NCBI RefSeq assembly: GCF_900112025.1
Contig: NZ_FOKL01000003.1
Coordinates: forward strand, 434,001-498,000
Origin: Janthinobacterium sp. 344
Lineage (GTDB): Bacteria; Pseudomonadota; Gammaproteobacteria; Burkholderiales; Burkholderiaceae_D
Direction of reading: 5' to 3'
Length of the DNA: 64,000 nt
Every line of letters begins with the position of its first letter. Position 1 is the stretch's first letter. This document shows, piece by piece, positions 44,335 through 52,324 of the stretch. A program made the translations under genes and the position numbers. Below the pieces are notes generated by a model. It searched no databases, had not been told where the DNA came from, and worked only from the letters and a program-made list of their open reading frames with translations.

Positions 44335-45516
44335 TCAGTTCAGCGCGGCAGCGGGGCCAAAGAATTCATGATGCGTCTGCTGTTCCGGCACGCCCAGTTC
44401 GCGCAGGTACTGTTTCACCGCCCGCATGAATGGCTGCGGCCCGAGGAAATACGCGTCGACGTCGCGCGAGGCAGGCAGCCACTGCGCCAGGCGCTCCTTG
44501 CTCAGCAAGCCGACGGCGTCCGGCGCATCGTGCGCGCCAGCATGTTCCGCATAGCAGTAATAACGCGTCAATTGCGGGTGCCGCGCGGCCAGCTCGTCGA
44601 TCTGCTGGCGAAACGCATGCACGCCCTGGTGGCGTGCCGCGTGGATGAAGTGCACGGGACGCTTGCCGCGCAGGGCCGCCGCCAGCATGGCCAGGGTCGG
44701 CGTGATGCCGACGCCGCCGCTGATGAGCACCAGCGGCTTGTCGCCATCCTGCAGCACGAAGTCGCCCGAGGGCGGCGTCAGCTGCACCGTGTCGCCCGCC
44801 CGCACGTGGTCGTGGAAATGGTTCGACACCTTGCCGCCCTGCTCGCGCTTGACGCTGATGCGGTAGGTCTGGCCATTGCTGGCGGCCGACAGGGAATACT
44901 GGCGGCGCATGGACACGCCATCGACCGTGGCCAGCACGCCGATATATTGGCCCGGCGCAAAGTCGAGCACGGGCCGGCCGTCGGCGGGCGCCATCAGGAA
45001 CGAGGTGATCTCGGCGCTTTCCACGATTTTGCTTTGCACGATAAAGTCGCGCGCGCCGCTCCAGCCGCCGGGCGCGGCGGCCTTTTCCTTGTAGATGCGC
45101 CCTTCCTCGCCGGCCAGGATCTCGGCCAGCTGGCCGTAGGCCGCGCCCCAGGCATCGATGACGGCGTCGCTGGCGACCTCTTCTCCCAGCACTTCGCGGA
45201 TGGCTTGCAGCAGGCTGGCGCCCACCAGCGGATAGTGTTCGGCGCGGATCTGCAGGGCCACGTGCTTGTTGACGATGACCGACACCAGGCCGCCCAGCGC
45301 ATCGAGCTGGTCGATATGCTTGGCATACATCAGCACGCCATTGGCCAGCGCGCGCTGCTGCTCGCCGCTGTGCTGGTGCGCCTGGTTAAAGTACGGCAGC
45401 ACTTCGGGATGGTCGCGGAACAGGTTCTGGTAGAAATGGCGGGTCAGCGCTTCGCCGCCCTGCTCGAGGATGGGGACGGTGGCGGTGATGATGGCGCGTT
45501 GTGCTTGGGTCAGCAT
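44335..45516 (-). CDS. hmp: Flavohemoglobin, nitric oxide dioxygenase
   Basis: 393 aa. Globin domain 1-140 with the proximal histidine in VLMYAKHIDQLDALGGLVSVIVNKHVALQI, then an FAD domain (RRQYSLSAAS) and a NAD(P) domain (LISGGVGITPTLAML; YFLGPQPFM). Oxidises NO to nitrate using O2 and NAD(P)H. Second in an operon with a hemerythrin gene 32 bases upstream. An NsrR operator controls the promoter. Confidence 0.95.
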   Translation of the reverse strand: MLTQAQRAIITATVPILEQGGEALTRHFYQNLFRDHPEVLPYFNQAHQHSGEQQRALANGVLMYAKHIDQLDALGGLVSVIVNKHVALQIRAEHYPLVGASLLQAIREVLGEEVASDAVIDAWGAAYGQLAEILAGEEGRIYKEKAAAPGGWSGARDFIVQSKIVESAEITSFLMAPADGRPVLDFAPGQYIGVLATVDGVSMRRQYSLSAASNGQTYRISVKREQGGKVSNHFHDHVRAGDTVQLTPPSGDFVLQDGDKPLVLISGGVGITPTLAMLAAALRGKRPVHFIHAARHQGVHAFRQQIDELAARHPQLTRYYCYAEHAGAHDAPDAVGLLSKERLAQWLPASRDVDAYFLGPQPFMRAVKQYLRELGVPEQQTHHEFFGPAAALN

Positions 45517-45548: not shown

Positions 45549-45962
45549 TCAGGCCAATGATGCAATGGCGGGATACAGATCGTGGTCTTCGCGCCGCATG
45601 CGCTGGTGCAGCGCGTGCAGCACGGCATTGGCTTCGCTGCGGAAGGCATCGGGCTCGGCCTCCAGGCGCACCGGCGTGTTCCAGCGGCTGGCGAATGCCA
45701 GGTAGGCGCCGGCGATGCCCTCCATCTCGTGTTCATACTGGCGCGCCAGCTGGGCAATTTTTGCCACGCCGCACGCCTGTGCGGCCGGATACAGATATCG
45801 CTGCTCGACGGCCAGGTGCAGCTTGATCAAGCCGCTCATGGCGATGATCTGGCTGGCGATCGCCTGCGCCTGGGCCGCCACGCCACCGCGCGCCAGCTGG
45901 CGCAAGTCATCGATGGCGGCCAGGATGGCCAGGTGCTGCTGTTTGAATTTGTCGATATTCAT
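45549..45962 (-). CDS. Hemerythrin HHE-domain protein of the hmp operon
   Basis: 137 aa four-helix bundle. Di-iron ligands: HLAILAAI, HLAVEQRYLYP, YEHEMEGIAG and REDHDLYPAI supply the H, H-x3-E and H-x3-D/H pattern. Related to small hemerythrins that bind NO or O2 or help repair Fe-S proteins. First gene of the hmp operon, directly under an NsrR-controlled promoter. Confidence 0.85.
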   Translation of the reverse strand: MNIDKFKQQHLAILAAIDDLRQLARGGVAAQAQAIASQIIAMSGLIKLHLAVEQRYLYPAAQACGVAKIAQLARQYEHEMEGIAGAYLAFASRWNTPVRLEAEPDAFRSEANAVLHALHQRMRREDHDLYPAIASLA

Positions 45963-46094: not shown

Positions 46095-46123
46095 ATAACA
46101 ATATGGTCATGTCTGCTTATAAT
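46095..46123 (+). promoter_or_regulatory. Promoter of the stressosome operon
   Basis: -35-like ATAACA (46095-46100), 17-base spacer, perfect -10 TATAAT (46118-46123); predicted start near 46130, 57 bases before the rsbR ATG. A housekeeping-type promoter. Confidence 0.55.
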
Positions 46124-46186: not shown

Positions 46187-47065
46187 ATGAAAAACAAGAC
46201 GGGCATGGGCCAGCCGCAGCAGCTGGCCAGCATCATCAGCGAACACCACACGGAATTGCTGGACGGCTGGATGGCCGGCCTCATCTCGCGTTTGGTAAGG
46301 CGCGACAAGATTGCGGAAAATGAATTGCGCCAGCAGGCATCGCAATTCCTGCCCCTGCTGGTGAGCGCGCTGGAAAGCGGCGACTCCTTCGACATCGAAG
46401 GCGGCGCCTGGGACGACACGCGGCAGCTGCTCAGTGAAATATCGCAGTCGCGCGTGCGCCAGGGCTATTCGCCGATCGACACGGCCAGCTTCGTGTTTTC
46501 CCTCAAGGAACCACTGTTCAGCTACCTGCGCACGGAACTTGCTGCGCAGCCACAGCAGCTGGGCGACGCCGTCGTTGCCACCAGCAAGCTGTTCGACGAG
46601 CTGGGCCTGCTGACCATCGCCATCTATCAAAAAGCGCGCGAACAGGTGATCCTGCGCCAGCAGCAGGAATTGCTGGAGCTGTCCACGCCCGTGGTGCAGC
46701 TGTGGCAAAACGTGCTGGCCCTGCCCCTGATCGGCACGCTTGACAGCGCCCGCACGCAAGTGGTGATGGAAAGCCTGCTGCAAAAGATCGTCGACACGGG
46801 CGCCCTGATCGCCATCATCGACATCACGGGCGTGCCCACCGTCGACACCCTGGTGGCGCAGCATTTGCTCAAAACCATCGCGGCGGCGCGCCTGATGGGC
46901 GCCGACTGCATCATCAGCGGCATCCGCCCGCAGATCGCGCAAACCATCGTGCACCTGGGCGTCAACCTGGAAGACGTGATCACCAAGGCCACCCTGGCCG
47001 ACGCCTTTGTCGTGGCCCTGAAACGCACGGGTTCCACCATCACTTACCAGCAGCAGCAACACTGA
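46187..47065 (+). CDS. rsbR: RsbR-type stressosome protein
   Basis: 292 aa. An N-terminal helical sensor-turret domain (~1-160, RsbRD-like; no haem or PAS motif) is joined to a STAS domain. Both phospho-threonine sites of B. subtilis RsbR are kept: VPTVDTLVAQHLL and GIRPQIAQTIVHLG. With RsbS it should build the stressosome shell that holds RsbT until stress. AAGGA is five bases from the ATG at 46187. First gene of a six-gene operon; rsbS starts seven bases later. Confidence 0.9.
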   Translation: MKNKTGMGQPQQLASIISEHHTELLDGWMAGLISRLVRRDKIAENELRQQASQFLPLLVSALESGDSFDIEGGAWDDTRQLLSEISQSRVRQGYSPIDTASFVFSLKEPLFSYLRTELAAQPQQLGDAVVATSKLFDELGLLTIAIYQKAREQVILRQQQELLELSTPVVQLWQNVLALPLIGTLDSARTQVVMESLLQKIVDTGALIAIIDITGVPTVDTLVAQHLLKTIAAARLMGADCIISGIRPQIAQTIVHLGVNLEDVITKATLADAFVVALKRTGSTITYQQQQH

Positions 47066-47072
47066 GGCGCGC

Positions 47073-47435
47073 ATGGAGAGAATCCCCATTTTACGCATGG
47101 GCCGGCTGCTGCTGGTGACGATCCAGGTGGACATGCATGACCGCCTGGCGATGACCTTGCAGGACGACCTGACGACGCGCATCGTCAAGGACCGCGCCAC
47201 GGGCGTGCTGATCGATATTTCGGCGCTCGACATCGTCGACTCCTTCATCGGCCGCATGATCAGCAACACGGCGGCGATGGCCAAGATCCTCGACGCGCGC
47301 ACCGTGGTCGTCGGCATGCAGCCCGCCGTCGCCATCACCCTGGTGGAGCTGGGCCTGGCGCTGGAAGGCGTGAGCACGGCGCTGAACGTGGAGCTGGGCA
47401 TCAAGCTGCTGGAACGGGGCAGCCTGTGGGAATGA
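47073..47435 (+). CDS. rsbS: RsbS-type STAS scaffold protein
   Basis: 120 aa single STAS domain. The phosphorylatable serine sits in ISALDIVDSFIGRMI, as in RsbS. Forms the stressosome core with RsbR and binds RsbT; phosphorylation by RsbT releases the kinase. Tightly placed between rsbR and rsbT. Confidence 0.92.
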   Translation: MERIPILRMGRLLLVTIQVDMHDRLAMTLQDDLTTRIVKDRATGVLIDISALDIVDSFIGRMISNTAAMAKILDARTVVVGMQPAVAITLVELGLALEGVSTALNVELGIKLLERGSLWE

Positions 47436-47451
47436 CGCGCACAGGTGCCGC

Positions 47452-47910
47452 GTGCTAGGCGCGGGCGCGCGGCTTGGCCTGCAGGAGCGCACGCAGGCCG
47501 GTGCGCAGGAAGCGGCGCAGGTGCTGCCGCTGCACACCGATGAAGACGTGGTGCGCTTGCGCAAGCAGGTGCGCGACAGCATGGTCGCCATGGGTTTTGG
47601 CCTGATCGAACAAACCAAGATCATCACGGCGGCCAGCGAACTGGCGCGCAACACGCTGCGCTACGGCGGCGGCGGCGAAGCGCACATCGAGCGCGTGCGC
47701 GACGGCGCGCGCCTGGGTCTTGAACTGAGTTTTATCGACAAGGGACCCGGCATCGAAGACATCCCCCTGGCGCTGACCGATGGCTATACCAGCGGCGGCG
47801 GGCTGGGACTGGGGCTGGGTGGCGCCAAGCGCCTGGCCGACGCATTTCACATCGACACGGCGCCCGGCATGGGCACCACCGTCACCATCGCGAAATGGAA
47901 GCTGTTTTGA
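47452..47910 (+). CDS. rsbT: RsbT-type serine kinase
   Basis: 152 aa from GTG 47452; an internal GTG at 47521 with AGGAAG upstream would give 129 aa, closer to the family, and is a good alternative. GHKL ATPase motifs: ASELARNTLRYGGGG (N box), DKGPGIED (G1) and GLGLGLGGAKRL (G2). Phosphorylates RsbS and RsbR; once freed it activates a downstream partner. Here that partner is probably one of the next gene products. Its end overlaps the next gene by 16 bases. Confidence 0.88.
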   Translation: MLGAGARLGLQERTQAGAQEAAQVLPLHTDEDVVRLRKQVRDSMVAMGFGLIEQTKIITAASELARNTLRYGGGGEAHIERVRDGARLGLELSFIDKGPGIEDIPLALTDGYTSGGGLGLGLGGAKRLADAFHIDTAPGMGTTVTIAKWKLF

Positions 47911-48986
47911 ATCACCTGGAGCCGTACCCTGCCCCGCGCAGGCAACAACGTTTTTCCATCGGCGAACCGAGCGAGATCGCCGCGGCGCGCCGGGCCGGCA
48001 ACGAGCTGGCGCGCCACATCGGCTTCGACGACGTGCGCACGGGCCAGTTGGCCATCGTCATCAGCGAGGCGGCCACGAATATCGTCAAGCACGCGCGGCA
48101 CGGTGAAATCCTGCTGCGCAAGGTGCTGCGCGGCGGCACCAGCGGCATCGAAGTGCTGGCCATCGACAGCGGCCCCGGCATGGCGAACGTGCGCCAGCAC
48201 ATGCAGGACGGCCATTCCACCACGGGCACGTATGGCGTGGGCCTGGGCGCGATACGCCGATTGAGCCAGGAATTCGACCTGTACACGGCGCCCGGCAAGG
48301 GCACGGCGCTGATGATGGTGATATGGGGACCGCACGCCAGCAGCGCCATCCCCGCCAGCCCGAACTGGCAGATCGGCGCCGTGTGCCTGCCGCTGGCCTC
48401 GGAACACGTGTGCGGCGACGCCTGGAACGTGGTCTGCGAAGGGCATGAACTGAGCCTGATGGTGGCCGATGGCCTGGGCCACGGCCCCCTCGCGGCGCAG
48501 GCGTCGGAGCGGGCCAGCGCGCTGCTGGAAGACAGCTCGCCCGGCCTGCCGCCCCTGCCTGCCCCGTTCATCGATCTGGCCCACGGCGCCCTGCGCGCCA
48601 CGCGCGGCGCGGCGCTGGCCGTGGCGCACATCGACAGCGCGCAGCGCGAGCTGCGCTTCGCCGGCGTGGGCAATATCGCCGCCTGCGCCTTCGATGCCCA
48701 CCAGCGGCGCCATCTGCTGTCGCATAACGGCATCGTCGGCAGCAATCTGCGCAAAGTGCAGGAATTCCGCTATCCATGGCAGCTGGGCACCATGCTGATC
48801 ATGCATTCGGACGGCCTGCACACGCGCTGGGACCTGGAGCAGTATCCGGGCCTGGCGCACTGCCACCCCAGCCTGATCGCCGCCGTGCTGTACCGCGATT
48901 TTTCGCGCGGACGCGACGACGTCACCGTGGTGGTGCTGCGCGAACACGAGGAACATGACGCCGTGGCGGGACAAGACACGGCATGA
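47895..48986 (+). CDS. GHKL ATPase-PP2C fusion (RsbT/RsbX-like)
   Basis: 363 aa. Residues ~15-145: an RsbW/RsbT-type ATPase (SEAATNIVKHARHG, DSGPGM, YGVGLGAIRRLS). Residues ~165-350: an RsbX/SpoIIE-type PP2C phosphatase (GDAWNVV, LMVADGLGHGPLA, HSDGLH, GRDDVTVVVL). The phosphatase should reset phospho-RsbR/RsbS, as RsbX does; the fused ATPase may tether it or act as a second switch. Start codon ATG 47895 lies inside the rsbT end. The usual RsbV/RsbW pair is missing. Confidence 0.85.
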   Translation: MEAVLNHLEPYPAPRRQQRFSIGEPSEIAAARRAGNELARHIGFDDVRTGQLAIVISEAATNIVKHARHGEILLRKVLRGGTSGIEVLAIDSGPGMANVRQHMQDGHSTTGTYGVGLGAIRRLSQEFDLYTAPGKGTALMMVIWGPHASSAIPASPNWQIGAVCLPLASEHVCGDAWNVVCEGHELSLMVADGLGHGPLAAQASERASALLEDSSPGLPPLPAPFIDLAHGALRATRGAALAVAHIDSAQRELRFAGVGNIAACAFDAHQRRHLLSHNGIVGSNLRKVQEFRYPWQLGTMLIMHSDGLHTRWDLEQYPGLAHCHPSLIAAVLYRDFSRGRDDVTVVVLREHEEHDAVAGQDTA

Positions 48987-48999
48987 GGAAAGGTAGCGT

Positions 49000-50823
49000 A
49001 TGACACAACGCATATTGACAGCCAATATCGCCAGCGAACTCGATGTGGTGGGAGCGCGCCAGCGCGCGCGGCAGATCGCGGCCCTGTGCGGCTTCGGCGT
49101 GCAGGACCAGGTGCGCATCGCCACGGCCGTATCGGAACTGGCGCGCAATGTCTACAACTACGCGGGCAGCGGCAAGATCCATTTCGCCATCGATGGCCAG
49201 ACGGCGCCGCAGCTGTTCAGCATCCGCATCGAAGACCAGGGTCCCGGCATCGCCCAGCTTGAGCAGGTGCTGGCCGGCACCTACCGCTCGCAGACGGGCA
49301 TGGGCCTGGGCATCCTGGGCGCGCAGCGCCTGATGGACCGCTGCCACATCCGCAGCGCGCCGGGCGCAGGCACGGAAATCACCCTGCAAAAGCTGTTCCC
49401 GCGCGACGCACCCCTGCTCGACGGGCAAAAGATCGGCGCCCTGGGCGGCAGCCTGCAGGCTTTGCCCTCGGACATCACGGTGGCCGAAGTGCAGCAGCAG
49501 AACCGCGAGCTGCTGGCCACCCTGGACGAGCTGAAAACGCGCCAGGAAGACCTGCTGCAGCTGACGCGCGAACTGGAAGACACCAATCGCGGCGTGGTGG
49601 CCCTGTACGCGGAACTCGATGAAAAAGCCGACCACCTGCGCCGCGCCGACCAGATGAAGTCGCGCTTCCTGTCGAACATGAGCCATGAATTCCGCACGCC
49701 CCTCAGTTCCATCCGCGCCCTGTCCAAGCTGCTGCTGGACCGCGTCGACGGCGAGCTGACGGACGAGCAGGAAAAGCAGGTGCTGTTCATCCTGCAGGGC
49801 GCCGTCAGCCTGAGCGACCTGGTGAACGACTTGCTGGACCTGGCCAAGATCGAGGCGGGCAAGGTCGACGTGCACGCCAACAGCTTCCAGGTGGCCGACC
49901 TGTTCAGCGCCCTGCGCGGCATGCTGCGCCCGCTGCTGGTGTCCGAGTCGCTGACGCTGACCTTCATCGCTCCCGATCCGGCCCTGCACATCCACACGGA
50001 CGAAGGCAAGCTGTCGCAAATCCTGCGCAACTTCATCTCCAACGCCCTCAAGTTCACGGAAGCGGGCGCCATCATCGTCAGCGCCACGCCGCTGCCGGAG
50101 CGGGACGCGATCCGCTTTTCCGTCTCCGACACGGGCCTGGGCATCGCCGACGACGACGTGCAGGTGATCTTCGAGGAATTCAGCCAGGTGGAAAACCACA
50201 TGCAGCGCAAGGTCAGGGGCACTGGACTGGGCCTGCCCCTGTGCCGCAACCTGGCGACCCTGCTCAATGGCACGGTGGAGGTGCAAAGCACCCCGGGCAA
50301 GGGTTCGCTGTTTTCCGTCGTCCTGCCCGTCAGCTACCAGGCGCCCGAAGGCAGCCAGTCGCCGTGCGCGCCTGCCAACGACAATGGCAACGACCAGCGC
50401 ATCCCCGTGCTGGTGGTGGAAGACAACCCGCCCATCCGCCTGCTGTACGAGAAATTTTTGGCCGGCAGCGAATTTCGCGTGGTGGCCGCGCGCAGCGTGC
50501 GCGAAGCGCAGGAGCGCTGGGAACAGCAGCGCCCCGCCGCCGTCATCCTCGACATCCTGCTGCACGGCGAAAATGCCTGGCACTGGCTGGCGGAACTGAA
50601 AAACGACCCGCTGCGGCGCCAGGTGCCCGTCATCGTCGCCACCGAGATCGACGACAAGCGCAAGGGCCTGGCGCTGGGCGCGGACGCGTATTACGTCAAG
50701 CCCCTGCTGCGCCAGCAACTGCTGTCGACCCTGCGCGCGCTGATCGGCCACACCCACCACCGGCAAGAGCCGGCACCGCCGCAAGGCACCACCACCAGGG
50801 ATAATGCGCATGCTACCGGATAA
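49000..50823 (+). CDS. RsbT-like ATPase/histidine kinase/receiver fusion
   Basis: 607 aa. Residues 1-135: an RsbT-like ATPase (SELARNVYNYAGSGK, DQGPGI, GMGLGILGAQRL). Residues ~165-215: coiled coil. Residues ~218-450: HisKA with FLSNMSHEFRTPLSSIR and an HATPase (NALKFTEAG, DTGLGIA, GTGLGLPLC). Residues ~470-590: a receiver (VLVVEDNPP; ILDILLHGENAW; KPLLRQQ). It appears to replace the partner-switch target of RsbT with a two-component kinase. GGTAGCG precedes the ATG. Its end overlaps the next gene by 20 bases. Confidence 0.88.
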   Translation: MTQRILTANIASELDVVGARQRARQIAALCGFGVQDQVRIATAVSELARNVYNYAGSGKIHFAIDGQTAPQLFSIRIEDQGPGIAQLEQVLAGTYRSQTGMGLGILGAQRLMDRCHIRSAPGAGTEITLQKLFPRDAPLLDGQKIGALGGSLQALPSDITVAEVQQQNRELLATLDELKTRQEDLLQLTRELEDTNRGVVALYAELDEKADHLRRADQMKSRFLSNMSHEFRTPLSSIRALSKLLLDRVDGELTDEQEKQVLFILQGAVSLSDLVNDLLDLAKIEAGKVDVHANSFQVADLFSALRGMLRPLLVSESLTLTFIAPDPALHIHTDEGKLSQILRNFISNALKFTEAGAIIVSATPLPERDAIRFSVSDTGLGIADDDVQVIFEEFSQVENHMQRKVRGTGLGLPLCRNLATLLNGTVEVQSTPGKGSLFSVVLPVSYQAPEGSQSPCAPANDNGNDQRIPVLVVEDNPPIRLLYEKFLAGSEFRVVAARSVREAQERWEQQRPAAVILDILLHGENAWHWLAELKNDPLRRQVPVIVATEIDDKRKGLALGADAYYVKPLLRQQLLSTLRALIGHTHHRQEPAPPQGTTTRDNAHATG

Positions 50824-52324
50824 CAACAGCGATGCTCTGATCCTCAACGTCGATGACAGCGACGGCGCACGCTACGCCAAGTCGCGCATCCTCACGCGCG
50901 CCGGCTTCAAGGTGATCGAGGCCTCGAATGGCGGCGACGCGCTGCTGCGCGCGCGCCAGGACCGCCCCAACCTGATCCTGCTCGACGTCAAGCTGCCCGA
51001 CATCAACGGCCTCGAAGTGTGTCGCCAATTGAAAGGCGGCGCCGAGACGAACACCATCCTGGTGCTGCAAACGTCGGCCTCGTGCATCGGCACGGCCGAC
51101 AAGATCCGCGCCCTCGACGGCGGCGCCGACAATTATCTGGTCGAACCGATCGAGGCGGACGAACTGATCGCCAACGTGCGGGCGCTGCTGCGCCTGGGCC
51201 AGGTCGAGCGCGAACTGCGCGAAGTCGACCGCCGCAAGGACGAATTCCTCGCCACCCTGGCGCATGAACTGCGCAATCCGCTCGGCCCCATCCGCACGGC
51301 GCTGGCCCTGCTGTGCAAGCTCGATCCCGTCGTGCCGGCCATGCAGGACAACGCGCGCCGCACCATCGCCCGCCACACCGACCACCTGGTGCGCCTGGTG
51401 GACGACCTGCTCGACGTGTCGCGCATTTCGCTGGGCAAGATCTCGCTGCAGTGGGAAAGCGTGAGCCTGGCCAGCGTGATCCGCAGCGCGCTGGAAACGA
51501 GCTCGCACAGCATCGAGGCGCGCGGCCATGCGATCGACATCGACCTGCCCAAGGAGGAACTGTGGGTCTGCGGCGACGCCGTGCGCCTGTCGCAGATCGT
51601 CGCCAACCTGCTGCTCAACGCGGCCAAGTTCACGGCGCCGGGCGGGCGCATCGCCATCGGCGCCGCGCGCGACGGCGACAACGTGCGCATACGCCTCGCC
51701 GACAATGGCATCGGCATCGCCGCGACCAGCATCGACAGCATCTTCGGCCTGTTCGCGCAGAGCGGCCATTCGCCGGACCGGGTGCAGGATGGCCTGGGCA
51801 TCGGCCTGTCGCTGGTGCGCACCCTGGTGGAACTGCACGGCGGCCAGGTCAGCGTCAGCAGCCCCGGCGTGGGGCTGGGCAGTACCTTCGAGGTCCATCT
51901 GCCGCTCGACGCCAACGTGCCCTTGCCCGCCGCCGCGCCGGCGCCGGCGGCCGACGGCAGCAGCCAGCGCGTCCTCGTCGTCGACGACAACAGCGATGCG
52001 GCCGACACGCTGGCCGAACTGCTGGAAATGTACGGCCACACGGTGCGCACGGCCTACACGGGCGCGCAAGCCACCGAACGCACGCTGGAATTCAAGCCCG
52101 ACATCGTCTTCCTCGACATCGGCCTGCCCGACATGAGCGGCTACGAGGTGGCCGTCAAATTGCGCCAGCTGCCGATCCCGCAACAGTTCCTGCTCGTCGC
52201 GCTGACGGGCTACGGCCAGGAACACGACCGGCAGTCGGCGCTGGCGGCGGGTTTCAACGAACACTTTGCCAAGCCTGTCGACTTCGGCAAGCTCGCCGCA
52301 TTGGGACTGCATATCGGCCAGTAA
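50804..52324 (+). CDS. Receiver-histidine kinase-receiver protein
   Basis: 506 aa. N-terminal receiver (LILNVDDSDGARYA; LILLDVKLPDINGLE), kinase core with FLATLAHELRNPLGPIR, NAAKFTAPGG, DNGIGIA and DGLGIGLSLV, and a C-terminal receiver (VLVVDDNSDAADTL; VFLDIGLPDMSGYE; HFAKPVD). No DNA-binding or enzyme output domain, so the final effector must lie elsewhere. Overlaps the upstream gene by 20 bases; last gene of the stressosome operon. Confidence 0.88.
   Translation: MRMLPDNNSDALILNVDDSDGARYAKSRILTRAGFKVIEASNGGDALLRARQDRPNLILLDVKLPDINGLEVCRQLKGGAETNTILVLQTSASCIGTADKIRALDGGADNYLVEPIEADELIANVRALLRLGQVERELREVDRRKDEFLATLAHELRNPLGPIRTALALLCKLDPVVPAMQDNARRTIARHTDHLVRLVDDLLDVSRISLGKISLQWESVSLASVIRSALETSSHSIEARGHAIDIDLPKEELWVCGDAVRLSQIVANLLLNAAKFTAPGGRIAIGAARDGDNVRIRLADNGIGIAATSIDSIFGLFAQSGHSPDRVQDGLGIGLSLVRTLVELHGGQVSVSSPGVGLGSTFEVHLPLDANVPLPAAAPAPAADGSSQRVLVVDDNSDAADTLAELLEMYGHTVRTAYTGAQATERTLEFKPDIVFLDIGLPDMSGYEVAVKLRQLPIPQQFLLVALTGYGQEHDRQSALAAGFNEHFAKPVDFGKLAALGLHIGQ

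Follow-up and report, generated by a model that had tools for sequence, protein, structure and literature searches.

The window analysed here is a stretch of 64,000 nucleotides from Janthinobacterium sp. 344 (contig NZ_FOKL01000003.1, positions 434,001 to 498,000; the host genome amounts to 6.44 Mb in 27 contigs), and our subject is the operon at positions 46187-52324 of it, where a set of stressosome genes is directly followed by genes of two-component type. Six contiguous genes, all on the plus strand, stand in the order rsbR-rsbS-rsbT-ATX-THK-RHR (Table 1). The fifth of them, THK, begins with an RsbT-like ATPase domain (residues ~1-135) and continues with a coiled-coil linker (~142-211), a HisKA+HATPase_c kinase and a REC domain. 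The initial annotation of this DNA had described six genes in an overlapping order, and the coordinates bear this out: RsbT and ATX overlap by 16 bases, THK and RHR by 20. For RsbT the GTG at 47521 (129 aa, with AGGAAG 8 bases upstream) is a more likely start, judging from the sequence, than the first in-frame GTG at 47452. Its score against PF13581 is 26.2 bits, just below the cut-off of 27.4, and it is over the cut-off for HATPase_c. ATX, the PP2C phosphatase adjoining the RST genes, is by its sequence a putative feedback phosphatase and the candidate RsbX. A Pfam scan of RsbR gave no globin-family match at E 0.001; the protein has RsbRD_N instead.

Table 1. Features of the operon and its surroundings, with two RsbR paralogues from other genomes (window coordinates unless a locus is named).
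Feature	Position	Strand	Description
rsbR	46187..47065	+	RsbRD_N sensor (PF14361, 90.2 bits) and STAS (PF01740, 48.6 bits); phospho-acceptor motif PTVDT
rsbS	47073..47435	+	single STAS domain (PF01740, 30.4 bits); Ser in VDSFI
rsbT	47521..47910	+	GHKL Ser/Thr kinase; HATPase_c, 39.2 bits
ATX	47895..48986	+	RsbT-like ATPase (HATPase_c_2, PF13581, 59.1 bits) fused to SpoIIE/PP2C (PF07228, 43 bits); candidate RsbX
THK	49000..50823	+	HATPase_c_2, HisKA, HATPase_c and REC, by Pfam
RHR	50804..52324	+	REC-HisKA-HATPase_c-REC, by Pfam
promoter-like site	46095..46123	+	ATAACA-17-TATAAT; consensus match only, 64 bases upstream of rsbR
hmp	44335-45516	-	NO (nitric oxide)-inducible flavohaemoprotein; NCBIfam match over cut-off
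hemerythrin-HHE protein	45549-45962	-	
RsbR paralogue	L267 8804-9775		RsbRD_N and STAS motif like that of the operon RsbR
RsbR paralogue	L271 6844-7815		RsbRD_N and STAS motif like that of the operon RsbR

The arrangement is well conserved. With THK residues 1-212 as query, 71 of 195 genomes of the family gave matches at 1e-10, genomes that matched through RsbT alone being counted too; the host and 12 more of its genus are among the 71. Sixty family loci were fetched from these matches: 53 have all six genes, six have a stand-alone THK and one (L104, G133 C11) is something else, with two adjoining weak RsbT-like-ATPase/kinase open frames and no stressosome genes. A scan of named genomes, for which 80 of 188 relatives were kept, found all six genes in 73/80 loci; L140, L167, L173 and L177 are incomplete, and L170, L178 and L180 are stand-alone THKs. 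The two sets comprise in part the same genomes, and their 140 THK rows reduce to 104 distinct N-domains. In both sets the co-occurrence of the six genes is far above chance, and the common gene order that had been proposed as a check is indeed found among the relatives. The hosts belong to three proteobacterial classes, the Bdellovibrionota and the Acidobacteriota, with one cyanobacterial metagenome-assembled genome; they include Oxalobacteraceae, Burkholderia sp., Methylobacillus, Cellvibrio, Peristeroidobacter and Asticcacaulis, together with Bdellovibrionaceae, Bryobacterales and Pantanalinema, these last three being metagenome-assembled and resting on unchecked binning.

Conservation extends to the residues on which a stressosome depends. 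All 53 six-gene family loci have the P-T-V-D-T motif in RsbR, the Ser of V-D-S-F-I in RsbS and an intact N-box, G1 and G2 in RsbT, so the first reading of these three proteins as complete with their phospho-sites holds well beyond the window. The RsbT patterns recur in 128/128 RsbT open reading frames (near-duplicate genomes kept), and ATX retains the E/N/D residues of its ATPase and the Asp residues of its PP2C domain in 53/53 family loci.

With respect to its N-terminal domain, THK resembles RsbT more than it does ATX: identity is 40% to the operon's own RsbT (over 122 aa) and 27% to the ATX ATPase. Compared with B. subtilis RsbT, the operon RsbT has 43% identity, the THK domain 42% and ATX 37%; the THK domain is therefore no closer to the Bacillus protein than the operon RsbT is. 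A quick tree of 154 ATPase domains, built on few columns and with many open forks, places the THK domains in one group, apart from RsbT and ATX, with a Shimodaira-Hasegawa-like approximate likelihood ratio (SH-aLRT) support of 99. This group consists of 44 THK rows, one THK that our script had labelled as RsbT, and the domain of L232, an RsbT-like domain on a HisKA_2 kinase. We had considered L232 as an independent second fusion, but its domain falls within the THK clade on a long branch, and independence is not supported. The predicted structure of THK residues 1-212 (predicted local distance difference test, pLDDT, 87.3) has its best PDB matches in SpoIIAB and RsbW, with histidine kinases lower; sequence searches of the PDB with the THK N-domain and with RsbT each gave 0 matches at E 0.01.

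The ATP motifs and the catalytic Glu are intact in the THK of the window, and the ATP site is intact in 77/92 distinct six-gene THKs. The other 15, along with one stand-alone THK (L098), have lost at least two of the four ATP residues, while L177 has lost one of the four. Ten of these degenerate domains were included in the trees (five other six-gene ones were left out), and they form one clade with a support of 99 in both the ATPase and the kinase tree. Among the THKs of the 10 degenerate loci, pairwise identity is 0.81 in helices 1-2 (residues 14-48), 0.27 in the ATP region (49-106) and 0.73 in the C-terminal helix (107-116); the RsbT proteins of the same loci have 0.78, 0.71 and 0.73 in these regions, and the THKs of 15 intact loci 0.80, 0.62 and 0.66. 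A predicted structure of the degenerate domain (pLDDT 84.5) gave 19 PDB matches at E<=0.001, all of them RsbW/SpoIIAB/UsfX anti-sigma serine kinase chains; in many of these structures the kinase is bound to a STAS protein.

What the degenerate domains retain corresponds to the partner-binding face of RsbT. According to PMC12143880, the B. subtilis RsbT residues R19, R23 and N24 have been implicated in the binding of RsbU, and D92 is predicted to contact its linker. The equivalents of R19 and R23 in THK are Arg20, which like Asp113 is invariant in the 104 distinct domains, and Arg24, which is Arg in 98/104, Lys in 4 and His in 2; at RsbT position 24 the THK domain mostly has Gln. A docking model for the Listeria stressosome (PMC9237128) has RsbT Gln20 touching the RsbR linker and Glu45 as the suspected base, and proposes RsbT-RsbT contacts on the particle. 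Q20 is found in 96-100% of THK domains vs 45% of the operons' RsbT proteins, a retention that fits docking to RsbR, as far as a sequence pattern can indicate.

The residues required for a phosphorelay are also in place. The HisKA His is present in 59/59 family THKs and the receiver Asp in 29/29 where a REC is present; in RHR both the kinase His and the phospho-acceptor Asp of the first receiver (REC1) are found in 53/53. The conserved receiver Lys of REC1 is replaced in all 53 family loci (Glu in 39, Ala in 14), with the Asp kept. A REC occurs on only 61/91 distinct six-gene THK open frames, which leaves RHR as the constant candidate acceptor in the family, though its REC1 is without the usual Lys. 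No Hpt domain was found in the 10 long sixth-gene proteins scanned; where a domain was found in the extra length, it was PAS. As to what lies beyond RHR, no additional neighbour recurs in more than 5/31 diverse loci (the most frequent cluster, of 5 loci, has as its example row a near relative in L135), and the output gene therefore lies elsewhere.

The initial annotation had also reported no RsbU, RsbV, RsbW or sigma factor, and named, as the finding that would speak against its interpretation, binding of RsbT to a separate RsbU/SigB-type target elsewhere in the genome with no contact to the fused kinases. Profile searches of the host genome yielded no RsbU_N over the cut-off of 25.5 (single best match 16.3 bits) and no SigB/F/G-type sigma factor over the cut-off (nine weaker sigma matches), so that, at these cut-offs, this part of the claim now extends to the genome. 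Among 28 HATPase_c_2 matches none was in an open frame shorter than 273 aa, those outside the locus not being classified singly. The claim is less secure for RsbV: one 125-aa open frame on contig C4 is over the cut-off for STAS_2, and by this match a predicted RsbV-like or MlaB-like single STAS protein exists in the host. Of four PF01740 STAS matches, two are in the operon, one is in a 556-aa frame and one in a 495-aa frame that we read as a SulP-like transporter. Finally, a single SpoIIE gene lies outside the operon (L005, C17 277172-280786), with two small genes downstream. We take it to be SiaA-like, and its small neighbours presumably resemble SiaB and SiaC; from their sequences, the three look like a second partner-switch-like unit.

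Considering these observations together, we tentatively read the operon as a stressosome module that signals through a histidine-kinase phosphorelay, with the N-domain of THK as a docking adaptor that would place the kinase under stressosome control; we would put this at slightly less than an even chance. All steps of binding, release and phosphotransfer in what follows are ones that we infer. RsbR and RsbS, as their families suggest, would form the STAS core, RsbT would be the catalytic switch kinase, and ATX, with its own RsbT-type domain, would be the resetting phosphatase in the role of RsbX. THK, the putative output kinase, would dock through the partner-binding face of RsbT (helices 1-2, R19/R23) and be held by the RsbR/RsbS core through this face, which could also contact a coiled-coil linker. 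Under stress, RsbT would phosphorylate RsbR and RsbS, RsbT and THK would be freed together, and the linker of the freed THK would settle into an active dimer. THK would then donate phosphoryl groups to its own REC, if it has one, to RHR, or to both, and from there they would reach an output protein encoded elsewhere, although this direction of flow is a guess from the domain layout. The earlier proposal that freed RsbT or the fused ATPases gate a phosphorelay thus survives in one respect, the stressosome genes and the kinases being one conserved unit, and has to be amended in another, the role of the THK ATPase appearing to be more one of docking than of catalysis. We favour docking because one lineage no longer has the ATP site and a second is missing the domain altogether; the ATX ATPase, unlike the degenerate THK domain, keeps its motifs.

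An extension of the docking idea, which we regard as possible while leaning somewhat against it, is that the RsbT fold serves as a common stressosome plug in three proteins of the operon: the RsbT kinase, the ATX phosphatase and the THK output kinase, in one lineage as a pseudokinase domain. THK would then belong to the RsbR:RsbS particle as an integral but exchangeable client and would not be the target of freed RsbT; perhaps it would occupy the place on RsbR that has been proposed for a non-catalytic RsbT in Listeria. If so, extra stand-alone THKs would add output arms to one particle.

Several observations weigh against docking as the sole role of the THK domain. The catalytic Glu is kept in 16/16 degenerate domains, a feature that docking alone leaves unexplained. 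The position of RsbT D92 is Gly in 96% of 28 intact THK domains. Arg19 is invariant in ATX and RsbT too and is therefore not specific to THK docking. No RsbR-type gene was found within the fetched stretch in 10/12 distinct stand-alone THK loci; the other two (L267 and L271, two genomes of one genus) speak for docking, with a stand-alone THK head to head with an RsbRD_N-STAS RsbR paralogue, and the two paralogues are nearly identical. A further observation concerns the operons that we call type B. In a sample from the phylum, query A1 matched 41/398 genomes and 34 of the 41 loci were fetched; eight of these 34 (L214, L215, L216, L218, L219, L221, L222, L225) keep the R-S-T-ATX-kinase-RHR order with the fused domain missing and a short coiled coil directly before HisKA in the fifth gene. 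There must therefore be a route that does not need the fused domain, which for these operons favours RsbT acting in trans.

This leads to the chief rival explanation, in which free RsbT is the messenger: once released from the stressosome, it would bind THK in trans and thereby activate the kinase. It could do so at the coiled-coil linker, much as it binds that of RsbU, or it could pair with the fused RsbT-like domain. RsbT is known to activate RsbU through its N-terminal domain and linker, and kinases with RsbU_N occur with rsbT, as PMC12143880 describes. Type B kinases have nothing but the short coiled coil ahead of HisKA, which makes RsbT the obvious candidate to activate them. Moreover, R19, R23 and D92 are conserved in the RsbT of 38/38 six-gene loci although these are without RsbU_N, and two sister operons have RsbU_N over the cut-off, in the kinase of L264 and in the diguanylate cyclase (GGDEF) of L241. 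On the other hand, no RsbU_N was found in the THK linker of the window or in the type B kinases of L214, L215 and L222 even at E 1; the interaction between VvRsbT and VvD1 of Vibrio vulnificus went undetected, by the account of Heinz 2022 (PMC9237108); and free RsbT gives no reason for the binding face kept by the degenerate lineage. We consider this explanation rather unlikely; a tethered adaptor and free RsbT in trans may both be true, in different lineages.

A further explanation makes the fused domain an additional Ser/Thr kinase, with RsbS/RsbR or RHR as its substrate and feedback on the stressosome as the result. The intact motifs and catalytic Glu in the window and in most six-gene THKs are what it would predict, but 15/92 have lost the ATP site, and in type B the domain is deleted from an otherwise retained operon; kinase activity of the fused domain is therefore not needed in general, and we hold this explanation to be improbable. 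The same intact nucleotide-binding motifs would suit a sensor of ATP/ADP, that is of energy state, gating the histidine kinase with the stressosome genes as a parallel input, but here the degenerate lineage is awkward, as there the domain persists although its site is gone, and what is conserved instead are the partner-binding helices; we give such a sensor very little credence. That the stressosome and two-component genes share an operon and no pathway, as the existence of stand-alone THKs might suggest, is the least credible of all, given the fixed order across phyla with no other conserved neighbour, and the operon-type THK beside an RsbT match in 6/6 of the family-survey genomes with a stand-alone THK (three of these partner loci, L101, L100 and L076, being confirmed as six-gene).

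With respect to the history of the fusion, a quick kinase tree of 57 rows recovers as single groups the degenerate forms (99), type B (100) and six stand-alones (97), with type B among the fused forms. Since no single branch separates off the outgroup, and long branches join one another, the direction of change is uncertain, and an origin of type B by loss is a reading of that tree only; taken at face value, it would mean two losses of activity in the fused ATPase, one through decay and one through deletion. The remainder of the phylum sample is quite mixed. Seven loci (L234-L240) have a fused THK, although the gene models gave no sixth gene in L235 and L236; others have large HK-REC-REC or GGDEF-EAL proteins downstream, or an RsbT-PP2C fusion; and L231 and L233 have no operon. 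This variety indicates that RsbT-type domains are mobile, turning up as free genes and as parts of phosphatases and kinases. In L228, L241, L264 and L265 two RsbT-like genes directly follow one another, and PP2C is encoded by a gene of its own, at the place of ATX.

Upstream of rsbR and divergent from it lie the genes of the flavohaemoprotein and the hemerythrin-HHE protein (Table 1). At 17 named loci titled Janthinobacterium, hmp is present in 16 and the hemerythrin gene in 15, as against hmp in 1/63 of the others (41% identity); we have therefore rejected a link to NO detoxification, the association of hmp being limited to the genus. Promoter-like sites number 2 in the region vs 0.7 expected in shuffles, a weak excess.

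That stressosome genes lie near two-component genes in some Gram-negatives, as had been stated, is borne out by two studies (PMC9237108, PMC10014275). In Heinz 2022 (PMC9237108), genes for HisKA/REC proteins come after rsbRSTX modules, and a phosphorelay is proposed as the output; by this account most downstream proteins of Gram-negative stressosomes are without RsbU_N, the survey covers globin RsbR only, and RsbU_N is named as the sole RsbT docking domain. Cutugno 2023 (PMC10014275) reports knock-outs of such a system in Vibrio vulnificus, including the downstream kinase. The present operon shares with V. vulnificus RSTX-D1-D2 the succession RsbR-RsbS-RsbT-phosphatase then two-component genes, the lack of SigB, a downstream kinase without RsbU_N and a proposed phosphorelay output. 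However, the Vibrio system has a haem-globin RsbR and a single-domain RsbX, whereas here RsbR is of the RsbRD_N type, the phosphatase is fused to an RsbT-like ATPase, the kinase itself carries an RsbT-like domain, and the sixth gene of the operon is RHR and not a cyclic di-GMP regulator. With the RsbU_N histidine kinases and MtG-type outputs treated in PMC12143880 it has in common an RsbT-type activator and a coiled-coil linker to a dimeric output enzyme; no RsbU_N was detected here, and the RsbT-like domain takes its place, which puts activator and target in one chain. The same text describes M. tuberculosis Rv1364c, a phosphatase with anti-sigma and anti-anti-sigma domains; ATX likewise joins PP2C to an RsbW-type domain, but its ATPase comes first, it has no STAS or PAS, and order and partners differ. 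RsbR, RsbS, RsbT and the PP2C chemistry recall the B. subtilis RsbRST-RsbU-RsbV-RsbW-SigB pathway; here RsbU_N and a SigB-type sigma factor gave no genomic match over the cut-off, and two-component proteins stand in their stead. The predicted fold of the THK domain is that of the RsbW/SpoIIAB anti-sigma serine kinases, which are not, as here, fused to a histidine kinase with the ATP site lost in one lineage.

What is new is thus the RsbT-like domain fused to THK, the wiring of a stressosome to two-component proteins being itself known from Vibrio. Among open-access papers, searched by title and opening lines of the abstract, none was found to describe a kinase with an RsbT-like domain or a stressosome from these genera. 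How stressosomes without RsbU and SigB pass on their signal is the question that this operon addresses, and it offers a natural series of ATP-competent fusions, degenerate fusions and kinases that have no such domain, with a conserved face that points to the residues for substitution. Partner switching and two-component signalling are usually studied apart; the fusion suggests a built-in physical link between them, and if our reading is true, it would be a direct physical bridge between the two systems in environmental bacteria of several phyla.

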